This document shows positions 45,332 through 53,790 of a stretch of 64,000 nucleotides of DNA, piece after piece. The translations under genes and the position numbers were made by a program. The stretch covers positions 434,001 to 498,000 of the forward strand of contig NZ_AP025172.1 in assembly GCF_003402535.2 (NCBI RefSeq). The letters are read 5' to 3'. The notes under the pieces were generated by a model that ran no database searches, was not told the origin of the DNA, and saw only the letters and a list, made by a program, of their open reading frames with translations. Position 1 is the stretch's first letter. Every line of letters begins with the position of its first letter. The DNA is from Cupriavidus sp. P-10. Its GTDB lineage: Bacteria > Pseudomonadota > Gammaproteobacteria > Burkholderiales > Burkholderiaceae.

Positions 45332-46567
45332 CTAGACACTCCTTCGGGTGCGACGGCGCGTTGGCAATGGGGGAAGGTTGGTGTCACGCATCATGTAGCG
45401 TGCGCAGGCCTCGATGTCTTGCTCAGAAACTCCGGCTTCCGCGAAGGTGTTCCTCCATCCAGAAACGATGTCCAGAAGCTGCTCGACTTCAGCGTGTGCC
45501 TCCGCAGGCGTGAGCATGAAGCGGGTGGCCTGGGATAGGGCATTTTCCAGCGTCGGGTCAGTGCCGTGGTCGCCGACAATCAGTTGCTGGTAGGGAATGC
45601 CTTGCAATTGCGGCTGGATGTCATAGACCGGCGACAGCCGCCAGTTTTCGCCACCTTGATGCAGGAAGGCGTGATTCTTCGCATGGTCGTCCGTGTTTTC
45701 GATGAGGATGTTCAAAACCATGCGTCGGAACATTTGGAGACAGTCGTCGAGAGGCGAGGGTGAATAGCGGCGCCCGACCTCCGCGATGTCCGCGTAGGAC
45801 ATTTGTTCCTCAGGGATGCCTTCGGCAAGCAGCAGCGTGCGAGCGCTCGCGAAGTGGATGCGGTCGCCGCCAGGTTTCCGGTCAAACCGCTTGACCAGTA
45901 GCGTGTTTTTCGTGCCCAAACGGACAAGCCTGGACTCCGGCGCCTCGATGCCGCACGCTTGCGCCAGCACGAGCGAGGCATGCTCGATCGCGCAGAAATC
46001 CACCTCGTCGCCCTCTGCTGGGAACTTGGCGATCCAGGAACTGCCTTCATCATCGACAATCGCCTTGGGACGAGCGCCGCCGGCGGTGCCGCCTGGCCGT
46101 AGCAACTGGCGAAGGCGATCGTCGATTGGCAGCTGCAGCTCGACGGCGCGCGCGGCCTCGAGCAATCCTGGCAGATCCCCGCGATGGAACACGAGAGGAT
46201 GATTGACCTCATACCGATCCGCAAGATCGGCAAAGCCGAGCGCGCCGATCCGGTCCTCGCCGGCCAAGGCCAGGTAGTCAATCGCCGCACGTCTGCGTGG
46301 GTTGAAGGCCCGATCGATAACGCGCCGTCCCCAGCGGTCCGGTCCGGCGTCTTCGAAGACAGGGTGTAGCTCCAGGCCAGACGGCGCCGAATACTTGCCA
46401 TCACGGAGCGGCAAGTCTGGCGAGAGCGCGATGGCGTCCTTCCGCTGCAAATAATCAGGCGCGTACGAGAACAGACACTGCCGACCACCGATCAGATCCA
46501 GGCGGCCGCAGAGCACAGGTTCAGGGCTGTGAGGTCGGTAGAACCAAACGTACAGGTGGCCGTTCAT
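45332..46567 (-). CDS. hipA: HipA-family serine/threonine kinase toxin
   Basis: A 411-residue HipA-like kinase. Recognised parts are the N-terminal DLIGGRQCLFSYAPDYL, the ATP-loop region ARPKAIVDDEGSSWIAKFPA and the catalytic NILIENTDDHAKNHAFL with the following LSPVYDIQP metal motif. HipA phosphorylates glutamyl-tRNA synthetase in E. coli and induces dormancy; targets here are unknown. The ATG overlaps the hipB stop (ATGA), so the two are co-translated. Confidence 0.92.
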   Translation of the reverse strand: MNGHLYVWFYRPHSPEPVLCGRLDLIGGRQCLFSYAPDYLQRKDAIALSPDLPLRDGKYSAPSGLELHPVFEDAGPDRWGRRVIDRAFNPRRRAAIDYLALAGEDRIGALGFADLADRYEVNHPLVFHRGDLPGLLEAARAVELQLPIDDRLRQLLRPGGTAGGARPKAIVDDEGSSWIAKFPAEGDEVDFCAIEHASLVLAQACGIEAPESRLVRLGTKNTLLVKRFDRKPGGDRIHFASARTLLLAEGIPEEQMSYADIAEVGRRYSPSPLDDCLQMFRRMVLNILIENTDDHAKNHAFLHQGGENWRLSPVYDIQPQLQGIPYQQLIVGDHGTDPTLENALSQATRFMLTPAEAHAEVEQLLDIVSGWRNTFAEAGVSEQDIEACARYMMRDTNLPPLPTRRRTRRSV

Positions 46568-46905
46568 GCTTTCTTCCACTGGGACTGCGACTTGGCAGCA
46601 GGCCGTTGCACGCGGGAGATCTCCAGATCCAGCGCGACCTCATCCGCGGCAGGATTGGCAATCTCGGGAAGCCATTTGACGCGCCCGACCAGCCAGAGCG
46701 CCATGGCATAAACGGCGACTGACACCGTTGGATCGCCTTGCTCCATCTTCCGGAGCGTTGGCACGGAAACCTGCATCCGCTCGGCGAAGGCCGCCATCGT
46801 TTCTTTGCGTCGCTTGCGGGCAACTTGCAGGTTGAGGCCGAGCTGAATCAGCGACCGGCTGACCGGGCCAGGTAGGGTGGAAACGGCGCTGGCTTTTCTT
46901 GGCAT
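46564..46905 (-). CDS. hipB: HipB-type XRE antitoxin/repressor
   Basis: A 113-residue protein with a Cro/XRE helix-turn-helix (RRKETMAAFAERMQVSVPTL then RKMEQGDPTVSVAVYAMAL). It precedes and overlaps hipA. It should bind the palindrome just upstream of its own start and neutralise HipA. The C-terminal KSQSQWKKA tail is basic, unlike the acidic tails of many antitoxins. Confidence 0.85.
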   Translation of the reverse strand: MPRKASAVSTLPGPVSRSLIQLGLNLQVARKRRKETMAAFAERMQVSVPTLRKMEQGDPTVSVAVYAMALWLVGRVKWLPEIANPAADEVALDLEISRVQRPAAKSQSQWKKA

Positions 46906-47062: not shown

Positions 47063-47320
47063 ATGCTGACGATCAACATGCACGATGCGAAAAGCCAGCT
47101 TTCGAAGCTGGTGGACGCTGTCGAGTCCGGCACCGAGGCAGTAGTCATCATCGCTCGCAATGGTAAGCCGGCTGCCCAGCTCGTCCCCGTACCCACTTTC
47201 GCACCACAACGCATCGGCGGGGCCAAGGGCATGCTTCCGTCGCTAGAGGGACTGACTCTGCATAAATTCAACGCCAGCGACGACGAAGTCGCGGCGATGT
47301 TTCTGGAGGGCGATGAGTGA
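47063..47320 (+). CDS. Phd/YefM-family antitoxin
   Basis: An 85-residue antitoxin: INMHDAKSQLSKLVDAVESG and VVIIARNGKPAAQLVPVPTF form the Phd DNA-binding fold; the tail ends NASDDEVAAMFLEGDE. It is preceded by AAGGAGAG and overlaps the toxin gene by 4 bases (GTGA). Confidence 0.9.
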   Translation: MLTINMHDAKSQLSKLVDAVESGTEAVVIIARNGKPAAQLVPVPTFAPQRIGGAKGMLPSLEGLTLHKFNASDDEVAAMFLEGDE

Positions 47321-47703
47321 GGGTGCTCCTGGATACACACATCGCGCTGTGGGCAGTGACCGGCAGCACTGATCTGCCGGCCGCGGCCGCGGCGGTCATT
47401 GCCGAGCCGACCAACGATATTTTCGTCTCCGTGGTCAGCCTCTGGGAAATCGGTATCAAATCGGCCATCGGCAAGCTGGGGTTCACAGCCACGCAGGCCA
47501 ACGCTGCTTTCGATCTGTGCGGATATCAAAGCCTGGTGATAAACAAGTACCATACGAGCACCCTCGATGCGCTGGCGCTTCACGATGACCACAAAGACCC
47601 GTTCGACCGCATGCTAGTAGCGCAGGCCCTCCATGAGGGAATGACGCTGCTGACCGCCGACACGAAGATGACCCGCTACTCCCCGACGACTAAGGTCGTA
47701 TGA
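47317..47703 (+). CDS. PIN-domain ribonuclease toxin
   Basis: A 128-residue PIN toxin of the group with the LLDTHIALWAV start (first catalytic Asp), VVSLWEIGIKSAIGKL (acidic) and HKDPFDRMLVAQALHEGMTL (third acidic site), then LLTADTKMTRY. It is presumably an RNase neutralised by the preceding antitoxin. It begins with GTG overlapping the antitoxin stop. This is the second PIN pair of the window, in a different subfamily from that at 19538. Confidence 0.92.
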   Translation: MRVLLDTHIALWAVTGSTDLPAAAAAVIAEPTNDIFVSVVSLWEIGIKSAIGKLGFTATQANAAFDLCGYQSLVINKYHTSTLDALALHDDHKDPFDRMLVAQALHEGMTLLTADTKMTRYSPTTKVV

Positions 47704-47995: not shown

Positions 47996-48357
47996 CGCGA
48001 ACAGTATGAACTGCGCGGCGCAGTCTGGATTGCCGTCAACGGCAACCTGGCGGATACTGACTGCGGGCGGCGCCGCAAGGTGTTACCCGATTTCTTCTTG
48101 GACGTTCTGCGGCTCTCCTCCATCGGAGCGAGGGCTGTTTTTTTGGTCGCGCCCACTATCTGGCAACCGGCGCGTCCAACTTGCCGACGGCAGCCGCCGC
48201 TGCGCGGTCGAGCACCGGATCTGCCGGTGTCATGTCGACCTGCGGGCGGCCTGGCCTGCGTGCACAATCCGAAAGCGCGCCGGTCGTCTGCCCTGCCGTC
48301 CAATAGCGCTGCCAGCGAACCTCAACCGCCGGCCGAACCTGCTTCGTCTTGATTTGG
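47996..48357. other. Stretch with an unassigned minus-strand fragment
   Basis: The minus strand from 48357 to a TAG at 48156 reads QVRPAVEVRWQRYWTAGQTT then DMTPADPVLDRAAAAAVGKL, which looks coding but lacks a start and overlaps the end of the metallophosphoesterase by a few bases. The family is not recognised. Confidence 0.35.
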
Positions 48358-48906
48358 TCAAGTCAGGACGCTGGGCAAGAACTCGCCCTCAATCGTGGCC
48401 AACGCGCACGCACCGAGACCGAAGATGCGGCACGGTCCTGTGGTCGGATAAGTCGTGGATTCGTGGTGATGACCGTGGAAAGCACGTTGCACGCCCATCG
48501 CTTCGATGAGCGTGTCAATCGCCTCGAACCCGTGTGGGTGACAAGCCGGAGCCTCTTGGCTGACCAGGACATCCGCATGCTGACTCAGCAGCGCGTTGTA
48601 GGTCTGCGGGAAGATCGTGCTGCGATGGCGCCGCGGCAGACCACCCCGCCAGTAATTCCCCTTCCCACATTTGGCGAGATAGTCAGTGGCGCTCTCTACG
48701 CGCGAGGCTTCGGGCGGCATCCAGACCTGGCCCCGAAAAATCCCCCCGAGCCCGGCAAGCCGAAGGCCTGAGATCGTGACCACCCTCCCATCCAGGTTCC
48801 GGTCGGCCAGGCCCGAGCCGAACAGGTTGTCGTAGTCGGCATCGCTGTCGGTGTCGTGATTGCCTGGAATCCACCACACCTGCGTCAGGGGAAGGATGCT
48901 GGCGAG
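48358..48906 (-). pseudogene. Metallophosphoesterase truncated by IS6-type element
   Basis: A calcineurin-like phosphoesterase C-terminal part, beginning LASILPLTQVWWIPGNHDTD at the IS boundary and containing the metal motifs GNHD and HGHHH. The N-terminal first metal motif (D-x-H type) is missing because the IS6-family element ends at 48907. The frame is open right up to the junction, so the cut is recent. Confidence 0.82.
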
Positions 48907-49736
48907 GGCATTGTCAACTTACCGAGAGTGAGACGTGCCGGCGGCAGGTGTGAGCATCGTTCAGATAGGGGCCAGCGGATTTTGGGCGTGTTCGGTCAAT
49001 TCGCGCCAGGCAACGAAGCGTGCGGCAAGCTGTTTGCGATAAAGCGAGGCGCGCAGCAGATGTCGCTTGAGCGCGAAGTGCTGCCGGATGGGGCCGAAGC
49101 TCGATAGGAACGCCTGCGCGCGCTTCGGGGCGCGAAAGCCGCGCATGCGCCGCTCCCGTTCGCGGGTCGGCTGGTGACTGTTCTCTGCCCGATTGTTCAC
49201 CCGGGCGGCGGCTTTGACGAACATGTGTTTGACGTTCGCCAGCTCCGGGATCTCGGCTTTCGCCGCAGGATAGCTGCGCAACTGATCGGTGACGATCTTG
49301 CGCGGCACTGGGCAGGAACGCAGCACGCGCTTGAAGAAACGTTTGGCGGCAGCCTTGTCGCGTCGCTTCTGCAGCAGGATATCGAGTTCGGCACCGTGCT
49401 CGTCGACCGCCCGCCACAGCAGGTACGGCTCGCCGCGGAGTGTCACGAACATCTCGTCCAGGTGCCATGTGCCGCCCGGTTTGCGACGCGCGGCCTTGGC
49501 GCGATGGGCAAAGCGGGCGCCGAATTTGTCGCACCAGCGACGGATCGTCTCGTAGGTCACCGTCACGCCGCGCTCGAACAGCAATTCCTCGATGTCGCGC
49601 AGGCTCAGGTTGAACCGGAAGTACCAGCGCACCGCCTGGCTGATGACCACCGCCGGGAAGCGGTGGCCGTGGTAGAGCGATTTCGTCTTCGTCATCGCGC
49701 CATCCTACGCGACCGCCCCACCAACGTGACAGTGCC
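48907..49736 (-). mobile_element. IS6-family insertion sequence
   Basis: An 830-bp element. Terminal inverted repeats are GGCATTGTCAACTT (48907-48920) and, at the other end, the reverse complement of GGCACTGTCACGTT (49723-49736); these are of IS26 type (GGCACTGT). It carries a single transposase gene. The 8 bases flanking the two ends (CTGGCGAG and CACTGCCT) do not match, so there is no target duplication. This is expected if IS6-type cointegrate formation or an adjacent deletion has remodelled the site. Confidence 0.87.
48961..49695 (-). CDS. IS6-family (IS26/IS240-like) transposase
   Basis: A 244-residue DDE transposase with a zinc-finger-less helix-turn-helix start (FPAVVISQAVRWYFRFNLSL) and the catalytic residues D80 in TWHLDEMFV, D137 in IVTDQLRSY and E171 in NNRAENSHQP. 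Length is as expected for this family and the frame is intact. It promotes replicative transposition and cointegrate formation. Confidence 0.95.
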   Translation of the reverse strand: MTKTKSLYHGHRFPAVVISQAVRWYFRFNLSLRDIEELLFERGVTVTYETIRRWCDKFGARFAHRAKAARRKPGGTWHLDEMFVTLRGEPYLLWRAVDEHGAELDILLQKRRDKAAAKRFFKRVLRSCPVPRKIVTDQLRSYPAAKAEIPELANVKHMFVKAAARVNNRAENSHQPTRERERRMRGFRAPKRAQAFLSSFGPIRQHFALKRHLLRASLYRKQLAARFVAWRELTEHAQNPLAPI

Positions 49737-49819
49737 CACTGCCTCACAGCACGGCCTAGGGCGACCCGGCGCCGAATCGGATCGTTCCACCCACCGGCGC
49801 AGCAACGCAGACTGTCGCC

Positions 49820-50646
49820 CTATTTTTCTTGAATCAGCCATGTGACGCCAAGATACTCATTGGTGAGTTCTCGAATGGCGGCGATCATGTCCATCGGGTT
49901 CCTGAACCCGTCCCTGTGCCGCGGCGGTTCCTGCCTCATTCTGAAATCGCTATCGATGCCTCCCGTCCGCCTTTGCGCGATGCGATCCTCCCGCCACCAC
50001 TGAGACACCGTCTCGAAAATCTCTTCGTATTCGTCCCGTAGTGACGCCGTGGTAAGGTTGATATAGTGCGGTCGGACGGAAATGTTTCTATTCCTGCTGG
50101 TTGGACGACTAATGGCCTTTCATCGGGATGCTCCGAGAACACAAAGGCGTGGGAACCGTTCGCTGGATACACAATGCAGTGGGATTCCGTGTTAGTCAGC
50201 GTCCCGCAAGCGGATATATCGATCCAGATTGAGTTCAGCGCTACACCGCCATTCTTGAAATGATCATTCAGTTCCCTTCTGCTCGTGAAGAGTGGCGCGC
50301 AGAAATAGAATTCTCGAGATTTCTTCTGCGAGAACTTATGAATGAGGTTGTACTGGTCCACGTCGATCGGAAAGGCGTAGTACGGCATACCCGCTGCCGA
50401 ACGGAAGTGCTTGTTGGAGCGACTAGCACCGTCTACCTTTCTGGAGATTTTGTGCTGGAGGTAGAGAAAGCGCACGGCCCCAGAATTTTTTAGCGCGAAT
50501 GCGACGTCAAAACCGAGTCGCTTTTCCTGATTTTGCGTGGGAATGTAGGGGCACCCGGCAATCACAGCGCTGCGCAAGGCGCAGAACTCCGAATTGAACG
50601 CGAACTCGAATACTCGCTCCGAGACGCCTGCTTGATATACGGCCAT
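49820..50646 (-). CDS. OLD-associated protein with PD-(D/E)XK-like signature, late frameshift
   Basis: The frame from ATG 50646 encodes VSERVFEFAFNSEFCALRSA, then PTQNQEKRLGFDVAFALKNS and FLYLQHKIS. The order E41, D47 and Q64-x-K66 resembles a PD-(D/E)XK nuclease core with Gln in place of the second acid. YYAFPIDVDQYNLIHKFSQK follows. Around 50080-50105 the coding text moves to another frame: RNISVRPHYINLTTASLRDE then YEEIFETVSQWWREDRIAQR to a TAG at 49820. Unless corrected, the product is 236 residues with an aberrant tail. It starts 15 bases after the OLD gene stop, so the two form one operon. No named family was recognised. Confidence 0.6.
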
Positions 50647-50661
50647 CTTGACGCTGGGACT

Positions 50662-52485
50662 TCAGAGCATTGCGCGAAGTCTGCGAAGCCAGCCGAGTAC
50701 TTCGCCAGCCGAATCCCGGGCTGCCACCCGTTCCGCTGTCATCAACGGGAAAGCCTTGTCGGCCAAGCGGATCTTTGCCTGCGTGTCCTTCATCACCCCA
50801 TCGAACCTCTGTTGCGCGGAGTAAACTTCTGCAAACAACTTGGGCACTGCCTTGCCGTCGGCGCCGGGTTGATCGGCCACCACTACGTCGACACCAAACG
50901 CCTCTTTGATGGCGTCGGCATGGAGATAACATTCGATCTCATGCTTCGCGGTCAATACACCCCACGAGCCATCGGTGCGCTTGTTGACGGCATCGATCGC
51001 CGCGCCATACGTGGCAACGTCGCTGTCATAAATATGGACCTCGGGACGGTTGAGCTGGCGCAGGTAGTGTGCGGCAACCCAGTGCTTGAGGGTGGACCCA
51101 CCTAGCAATACAAAGGCCACCCGCGGATCGCTCTCAAGATTCAACACGGTCTGATCTGCTGCATGCAGCGCACGGCTAAGGCATTTCAGCGCGATGATAT
51201 CGGTTGGACCCTCGACGCAGAGAAGGACCTTGACGCGGCTGTCCGGTACGACGCCAAGGGTTTCCGCGACGTTGCCAAAGACGTCAGCGCCCGTCTGAAT
51301 CTCTGGCTTCAAGTCGTTGCCGCGCGTCACAAATCGAATGCTTTCCGTTGGCAGTTCGGAAGCGAAACCGGGGCTATGGGTGGTCAGGATGACTTGGCAG
51401 CCCCGCTCGGCCGCCAGCGTCTTGAACGATTCGATCAGGATGCGCTGGTTGTTCGGGTGCTGAGCGGTTTCCGGTTCTTCGATCGCATAGATGATGTTCC
51501 GAGTGGTACCATTGCGCAGCCTGCGTTCCGCCTCCGCCTTGAAGAAGCTGACCAGGATAAGTCGCCTGACCCCGCTTCCCCGCTTATTCAGAGCGATTCC
51601 GTCGTCAGTATCCAGACTCACAGAGAAGAGTCCGGTCCATTTCGCTGCAGTGGGCGGCGCAAACTGCGGAGTCAGTTCCCTAGCAAGACCCGGATCGATC
51701 GTCTTCAGTGCCTCGTGTGTTGTCCGAGCGATTTGCTCGGCCTTCTCACGTACTTTCAACTGGATGCGCTCAATGTCGTCCTGCACCTCCGCAATCGCTG
51801 CGGCGACCGCGGCCTTCATCGGATTTTGTACTTCCCCATCCGAATCCCGACTGCTCCGATCGCTTTGGAACAGGGCGAATAGTGGTAGATGTGGCTCGAG
51901 CTGGTCCCAAATGCGCTTGCTGTCTTCCTTCGGCTTCGTGACATGTATCTCGACTTCCTTCAGATGGAGGTCGCCTGCCGCCGCCCAAAGGGCCTGCCGC
52001 ATGCCTGGATTTCCCTTGCGGGCGACAGGTAGTTTCTGATCATCCACCCGACGTTGCAGGTCTCGCTCTTTCAGTTCAAGCAGGTCCGCGACACCAGAAG
52101 TTGTGGGATGGTGTGCCAGGATCGAGACCTCTGCCGACACCGTCTTCTTGCTGCAATCAAAGCTCTTGCGAATCTTCAACGAACCGTTGGCAGCGAGCAG
52201 AAACTCTGCTTCCAGAGTCGTCTCTGCGCCGGCATCGAGAGTCAATGTTGTGGGCAGATCGGAAAACTCACACGTGATGGCGACGGTCTTGTCTTCGTTG
52301 TGGACGTTAGCGTCGCTGGCGTCGATCTTGACTGTCTCGTTGTTGAAAAAGATCTCGAGCGCCTCGAGGACAGTCGACTTCCCGATGTCGTTCTTGCCAA
52401 CAAACGTCGTCAGATCTGACATGGCTACCGTGATTTCATCACGATAACAGCGGAAATTTCGGATCGACACAGATTGCAGCCGCAT
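50662..52485 (-). CDS. OLD-family ATPase-TOPRIM nuclease
   Basis: A 607-residue overcoming-lysogenisation-defect (OLD) family protein. The ABC-type ATPase has Walker A GKNDIGKST (residues 30-38), the signature-like NKRGSGVRRL (300-309), Walker B IIYAIEEPET (331-340) and the switch His in TTHSP (370). The C-terminal TOPRIM nuclease has E425 in CVEGPTD, LGGST at 461-465 and D487/D489 in IYDSDV. Such proteins are DNases and include Gabija GajA and phage P2 Old. The partner gene here is not the UvrD-like helicase of Gabija. All motifs are intact. Confidence 0.9.
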   Translation of the reverse strand: MRLQSVSIRNFRCYRDEITVAMSDLTTFVGKNDIGKSTVLEALEIFFNNETVKIDASDANVHNEDKTVAITCEFSDLPTTLTLDAGAETTLEAEFLLAANGSLKIRKSFDCSKKTVSAEVSILAHHPTTSGVADLLELKERDLQRRVDDQKLPVARKGNPGMRQALWAAAGDLHLKEVEIHVTKPKEDSKRIWDQLEPHLPLFALFQSDRSSRDSDGEVQNPMKAAVAAAIAEVQDDIERIQLKVREKAEQIARTTHEALKTIDPGLARELTPQFAPPTAAKWTGLFSVSLDTDDGIALNKRGSGVRRLILVSFFKAEAERRLRNGTTRNIIYAIEEPETAQHPNNQRILIESFKTLAAERGCQVILTTHSPGFASELPTESIRFVTRGNDLKPEIQTGADVFGNVAETLGVVPDSRVKVLLCVEGPTDIIALKCLSRALHAADQTVLNLESDPRVAFVLLGGSTLKHWVAAHYLRQLNRPEVHIYDSDVATYGAAIDAVNKRTDGSWGVLTAKHEIECYLHADAIKEAFGVDVVVADQPGADGKAVPKLFAEVYSAQQRFDGVMKDTQAKIRLADKAFPLMTAERVAARDSAGEVLGWLRRLRAML

Positions 52486-53106: not shown

Positions 53107-53790
53107 TTGGACTCTATCAAGAATTGGGGTTGGGTACTATCCGTCGCACTCATTGCGACCGCCGCTCTATATCTAGACGTCTACTACAGACCGTTTGGAA
53201 TCAATCCTTTTTCCTTCATCTCTCCGGCGGATGCCGTCGGCCACGCTCTGCGAGTGCTTGTCATGTCGGCAACGGTGGTGGCACTCGGTTTGGTTGCTTC
53301 CTTTTTGGGAGCAGTCAAGCAGACGAACACTCCGCTCGGCTATGGTGCCTTGGTGCTACCCGTCGTTGTGTTTTTTTGTGCGATTCTTGCTAGTGCCGGC
53401 GAATTTCCGCTTCTAAGCCAGAAGCACGACCTGCTATTCGTTGCTATCGTTCCATCCGTCTTATCTGCCTCTTATTGGGGGCCTTTAATGGAACGTATTC
53501 CGAGCCGCAATCTGCGAATTGCGCTGATCTCCCTAGTGTTCTCTTTTCCGCTATATGCCATTCTCAACGCGATGTCTGACGTAAAAGCAGTGCGGGAAGG
53601 GAAGAAGTCGACACTGGTCCGCCAAATTTTGCCGGGTGACGGCACTAGTGCCTTGCCGCCGGAGACGCGCGCCCTCGTAGGTAAGCTGGGATCGACCTAC
53701 TTTTTCCTTTCCCGATCCACGGGTCGTGTAATCGTGGTCAACGAAGACAAACTTGAGTCGCTGGAACTGCGACCCGAAGGAAGCAAATAG
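53107..53790 (+). CDS. Integral membrane protein of unknown function
   Basis: A 227-residue protein with about four transmembrane segments (WVLSVALIATAALYL, VLVMSATVVALGLVASFLGA, LVLPVVVFFCAILASAG, IALISLVFSFPLYAILNAM). A C-terminal soluble domain is rich in charged residues and ends LESLELRPEGSK. The start TTG at 53107 lies 4 bases after the preceding ORF, suggesting an operon. Base composition is somewhat lower in GC than the flanks. No family was recognised. Confidence 0.6.
   Translation: MDSIKNWGWVLSVALIATAALYLDVYYRPFGINPFSFISPADAVGHALRVLVMSATVVALGLVASFLGAVKQTNTPLGYGALVLPVVVFFCAILASAGEFPLLSQKHDLLFVAIVPSVLSASYWGPLMERIPSRNLRIALISLVFSFPLYAILNAMSDVKAVREGKKSTLVRQILPGDGTSALPPETRALVGKLGSTYFFLSRSTGRVIVVNEDKLESLELRPEGSK

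Follow-up and report, generated by a model that had tools for sequence, protein, structure and literature searches.

An OLD-type nuclease gene beside a frame-broken, nuclease-like partner in a mosaic island of Cupriavidus sp. P-10

The OLD gene and its genomic surroundings

The analyzed stretch of DNA (64,000 nucleotides of Cupriavidus sp. P-10, hereafter the window) was placed in a 1.64-Mb contig of the 9.08-Mb genome. It carries an intact gene for a 607-aa OLD-type ATPase-TOPRIM protein (50662..52485, minus strand), which matches the Pfam family AAA_15 with an E value of 2e-81. PADLOC profiles that matched include the ATPase model of AriA (7.8e-67), Old (6e-32) and GajA (1.2e-22), with the AriA match confined to the ATPase part of the protein (residues 1-374). 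Reading the sequence revealed a Walker A motif (GKNDIGKS), a Walker B motif (YAIEEPET) and the TOPRIM motifs VEGPTD and YDSDV. Both Walker motifs are invariant across an alignment of 35 OLD proteins, and the TOPRIM glutamate and DxD residues (E425, D487, D489) show no variation in the same rows. The Pfam TOPRIM model did not match the protein, and the TOPRIM assignment is based on these motifs together with the overall fold. A predicted model of the protein (pLDDT 85.5) had the OLD nuclease of Thermus scotoductus (6p74) as its best Foldseek match (E 4e-19), directly followed by GajA structures.

With its ABC-type ATPase domain, C-terminal TOPRIM domain and modeled overall fold, the window's OLD is a putative nuclease with the features of class 1, the class that includes the Thermus scotoductus OLD and the Old protein of phage P2. 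In common with these, it combines an N-terminal ABC-type ATPase and a C-terminal TOPRIM domain in one chain and, in the loci read here, has no constant second gene; it differs in that members of its branch often adjoin restriction genes (see below). P2 Old and the Gabija protein GajA are examples of OLD proteins in antiphage defense.

Upstream of the OLD gene and pointing away from it lies an unnamed gene for a 227-aa protein with a hydrophobic start (53107..53790, plus strand) and no Pfam match. By eye, two of the other loci (L025 and L038) likewise encode, upstream of the OLD, a hydrophobic protein without a name that is about 230 aa long.

Downstream, the OLD stop is separated by 15 bases (50647..50661) from the start of a second gene on the same strand, the partner (49936..50646, minus strand). 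Just 3' of the partner lies an IS6/IS240-type insertion sequence (48906..49737, minus strand; ends set by eye, imperfect terminal repeats) with a transposase ORF at 48961-49695 (DDE_Tnp_IS240, 4.1e-33). The window contains no second copy of this element type. On its other side the element cuts a metallophosphoesterase gene (48337..48906, minus strand), as seen by comparison with Cupriavidus necator pHG1; the first ~40 residues of the enzyme were not found in the window, and the cut gene is known from Cupriavidus plasmids. Further along are a Phd/YefM antitoxin and PIN toxin pair (47063..47703, plus strand; PhdYeFM_antitox 3e-9, PIN 4.5e-13) and a HipA-type kinase with a helix-turn-helix (HTH) partner (45332..46905, minus strand; HipA_C 4.6e-48, HTH_31 1.8e-5, the latter under the curated cut-off). 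The setting of toxin-antitoxin genes and insertion sequences described in the initial annotation is thus present, with a single IS6/IS240-type transposase. No methyltransferase was noticed beside the OLD-partner pair.

The partner gene and its family

The partner starts with an ATG at 50646, and its 236-aa ORF carries E41, D47, Q64-H-K66 and the segment YYAFPIDVDQYNLI. An intact relative (P0001) aligned to the window by tblastn in two frames, with residues 1-194 in one (~50646-50065) and residues 197-273 in another (~50056-49826). The conserved nuclease-like core therefore stays in frame from 50646 to ~50065, the frame is lost near 50060, and the 236-aa ORF ends with ~40 residues that are not in the family's frame. 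The family's C-terminal ~77 residues continue in another frame at 49826..50056 (minus strand; 88% identity to residues 197-273 of P0001), of which the ORF 49820-50008 is a part. Intact copies occur elsewhere; the one in the window is broken or mis-assembled. A search of the whole genome with the partner gave one match.

Among 276 candidates we identified 40 relatives of the partner, mostly 265-290 aa long. In 31 divergent rows, 12 residues are invariant (P33, P36, E41, G45, D47, Q64, K66, F92, Q98, P118, F120 and H156), and E10 is kept in all 30 rows that have this position. The invariance of E41, D47, Q64 and K66 across such divergent relatives is more than would be expected by chance. The gene layout first reported for this locus, namely an intact OLD gene, a 15-base gap and a partner with E41, D47 and Q-x-K66, is borne out. 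Judged against the libraries used, the family is unnamed: the window frame had no match in Pfam, NCBIfam or PADLOC, and the family members tested had no significant match in Pfam, PADLOC or PHROGs (NCBIfam was searched with the window frame only).

The conserved residues include the catalytic-type D and (D/E/Q)-x-K of the PD-(D/E)XK superfamily, which suggests a PD-(D/E)XK fold. A structural model predicts the order helix 10-25, strand 27-31, strand 58-65, helix 76-85 and strand 89-94, compatible with the alpha-beta-beta-beta-alpha-beta core of that superfamily. In the model, D47 would fall between strands and the Q-x-K at a strand end, with residues 38-49, including the E41-D47 loop, at a pLDDT below 50. 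Structure searches with this model, in which the region 38-49 has low confidence (pLDDT <50), returned no nuclease match.

Profile comparison brought the partner's G-x-D and subsequent Q-x-K into register with Mrr and DUF4365, two families of the PD-(D/E)XK superfamily. The scores were not significant: single comparisons gave E values of 0.61 (Mrr) and 0.027 (DUF4365) versus 0.41 and 0.24 for unrelated control pieces, which thus outscored Mrr. The partner therefore resembles Mrr-type and DUF4365 domains in the register of these motifs and differs from them in the non-significant score and the missing fold match. Taken together, we lean towards the partner being a PD-(D/E)XK-type nuclease. Of the earlier proposal that the OLD is paired with a putative nuclease instead of a helicase, the catalytic-type residues and the reality of the family stand, and no library identifies the partner as a helicase; structure searches gave no confirmation of the PD-(D/E)XK fold. 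No UvrD-like helicase was seen beside the window's OLD.

Genomic contexts of the partner and of related OLDs

Restriction-modification genes accompany the partner family in 8 of 21 loci, and the remaining 13 have no such neighbor. In four loci (L002, L004, L005 and L007), the family member sits between a methyltransferase and a BPTD_3080-type restriction gene (NF046055), with starts and stops overlapping on both sides of it. The window differs from these operons, as the whole genome has no NF046055 match. Conversely, a partner homolog was absent within 1.5 kb at 30 other loci of the BPTD_3080 restriction protein from the window's order. At another locus of this protein (L062), a gene for a YhcG PDDEXK nuclease directly adjoins the restriction gene.

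The OLD-partner pair itself appears to recur on three metagenome contigs, combining the partners P0001, P0002 and P0020 with the OLDs P0046, P0041 and P0042. We infer this from equal longest-contig sizes reported for the partner and OLD proteins (11775, 11113 and 162250 bases). These OLDs are 96-97% identical to that of the window, and the P0020 partner is short (188 aa). Three of the six listed OLDs with at least 90% identity have such a partner match.

Beyond these contigs, 12 partner-family queries found no partner at any of 29 further OLD loci, of which 7 are on plasmids, 3 in genomes and 19 in viral contigs. Three loci of this set (L034, L043, L045) have no more than 300 bases beyond the OLD stop, L060 is fragmentary, and the set includes near-copies such as L051 and L052. 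In the opposite direction, none of 21 other partner loci, viewed over up to 8 kb per side and in some cases cut by contig ends, contained an OLD of the window's type. A comparable neighborhood exists in Billgrantia (L013), where an OLD-like gene, only distantly similar to the window's OLD, has a partner-family gene 106 bases upstream. Conserved adjacency across unrelated genomes, named in the initial annotation as support for a distinct defense architecture, was therefore not found, and what remains is the apparent recurrence in three near-identical metagenome relatives. Partner homologs were also absent from the plasmid and phage collections (E 1e-5) and from the viral contigs searched, and we dropped the idea of a phage-borne partner because neither the phage collection nor the viral contigs gave a match.

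OLD relatives, in turn, are numerous: of 7998 candidates that were scored, 7063 gave a match at E 0.001, and 357 plasmid records, most of them enterobacterial, matched at 1e-30. We read 15 plasmid OLD regions, picked for variety and not at random, and in six of them a restriction gene is the immediate neighbor of the OLD. These neighbors are MmeI in Micrococcus, a divergent HsdM/HsdS in Vibrio, PmeII/EcoO109I with Dcm in Lactiplantibacillus, DUF262/GmrSD_N in Salipiger, LlaMI with Dcm in Psychrobacter, and what is annotated as a DNA methyltransferase and a DEAD helicase in Leuconostoc. The other nine regions have no restriction gene at the OLD, with one OLD side visible in two regions (L043 and L134).

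For comparison, 9 of 146 other genes had such a neighbor, a rough baseline that was drawn from five of the six plasmids (one read in part) and hence from plasmids that had been selected because they have restriction genes. Given this choice, the bias runs against the observed enrichment (Fisher p 7e-4 for 6 of 15 regions versus 9 of 146 genes; p 2e-4 for 6 of 12 lineages when we grouped the four enterobacterial-type regions). In an unselected 50-kb stretch of pHG1, none of 41 genes is annotated as restriction.

Two of the three genome loci likewise have restriction genes at the OLD, while in the third (L036) none was recognized. In L037 (2890-8603), a D12 methyltransferase and an AlwI endonuclease are followed by the OLD after 37 bases. 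In L038 (3713-8818), from the window's own genus, the order is an N6 methyltransferase, a XamI endonuclease, a 230-aa gene and then the OLD. These two OLDs, each at the end of a methyltransferase-endonuclease operon, are sisters in the tree, yet stand beside unrelated endonucleases (AlwI versus XamI), so the restriction genes vary and the OLD is retained.

The association is not uniform. The closest OLDs with visible context (L025, L034 and L036; 67-69% identical, with 25 bases visible downstream in L034) have neither a partner nor a recognized restriction neighbor. The tree holds 27 OLDs besides the window's, and for 17 of them no neighbor is labeled as restriction or Mrr-type, with viral neighbors mostly judged from their first residues.

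On the Psychrobacter plasmid pP62BP1 we observed two near-identical Dcm-LlaMI modules (L137, 7289-11488 and 26411-30452; 99% and 96% identical). One lies by the OLD, the other by a different ATPase with, by eye, a GHKL/MutL-like start.

Interpretation of the locus

The reading that we prefer, and to which we give an even chance, is that two separately mobile, restriction-linked modules were recently combined in a mosaic island. One module would be a class-1-like OLD nuclease that stands alone and in which the ATPase domain may gate the TOPRIM nuclease; the other would come from an unnamed nuclease-like family whose members often belong to restriction-modification operons. On this account the pair amounts to no more than a local instance of a looser habit, an OLD beside a restriction-type cutter.

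Against this, the island may simply have gathered an OLD and a broken restriction-type orphan as chance neighbors with no working link. We consider this quite possible and treat it as a serious rival. The pair is shallow, being apparently shared with the three metagenome contigs only, the partner has lost its frame and directly adjoins an IS6-type element that interrupts the gene beyond it, and all 29 other OLD loci do without a partner. However, a spacing of 15 bases on one strand fits co-transcription, the Billgrantia locus has a similar neighborhood, and OLDs of this branch adjoin restriction genes more often than in the rough baseline, which argues against a purely accidental meeting. The same tight spacing, together with the conserved catalytic-type residues and the apparent recurrence in three near relatives, could instead point to a dedicated two-gene OLD and PD-(D/E)XK defense system with its own conserved architecture, as originally proposed. 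The distinct conserved architecture did not hold up: the window's partner is frame-broken, the arrangement was repeated at none of the 29 OLD loci and none of the 21 partner loci, and the phage and plasmid collections and viral contigs searched lack partner homologs. We therefore regard a dedicated system as unlikely.

Known OLD-based systems were also considered. Gabija consists of the OLD-family protein GajA and the UvrD-like helicase GajB, and PARIS of AriA and AriB (DUF4435). The PADLOC matches of the OLD ATPase domain to AriA and GajA, and the GajA structures next in the Foldseek list, speak for a divergent member of either. The window shares with Gabija an OLD-family ATPase-TOPRIM protein and differs in that no helicase gene is recognized and the second gene is unmatched in the libraries used. 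We rejected Gabija as no GajB-type UvrD-like helicase was recognized beside the OLD, the neighbors being the partner frame without a family match, the IS6-type transposase and the unnamed gene at 53107-53790. PARIS was rejected in turn, as DUF4435 was found in neither the OLD, the partner frame nor the 53107 gene (Pfam, E 0.1; for the OLD, PADLOC results cover the best 25 of 156 families) and the AriA match does not extend beyond the ATPase part. A divergent Gabija or PARIS is thus very improbable.

Returning to the two combined modules, we propose that the partner family would make or aid the first cut of foreign DNA in a sequence- or modification-dependent manner, and that the OLD would serve as a second-line enzyme on cut or otherwise exposed DNA, in this presumed order of action. 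The other OLDs of the branch would play the same role for the unrelated restriction enzymes encoded next to them. Both the nuclease activity of the partner and a benefit from pairing are putative. Given that the partner is frame-broken in this genome, the OLD here probably acts alone. If OLDs of this branch act as accessories to restriction systems, a large protein family gains a testable job. The partner family, for its part, would be an additional, unnamed candidate nuclease of restriction operons.

Two further contexts of OLD genes were recorded. On viral contigs (L051-L053 and L054), an nSTAND3 protein adjoins the OLD, as scanned in L052 and L054. In these two viral-contig lineages (L052, 6001-10243; L054, 1094-5356), the nSTAND3 protein comes after the OLD and is an NTPase of ~750-770 aa, with an Mrr_cat domain in L054. 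In two enterobacterial plasmid regions (L130 and L131), an OLD 36% identical to that of the window lies near silver/copper resistance genes.
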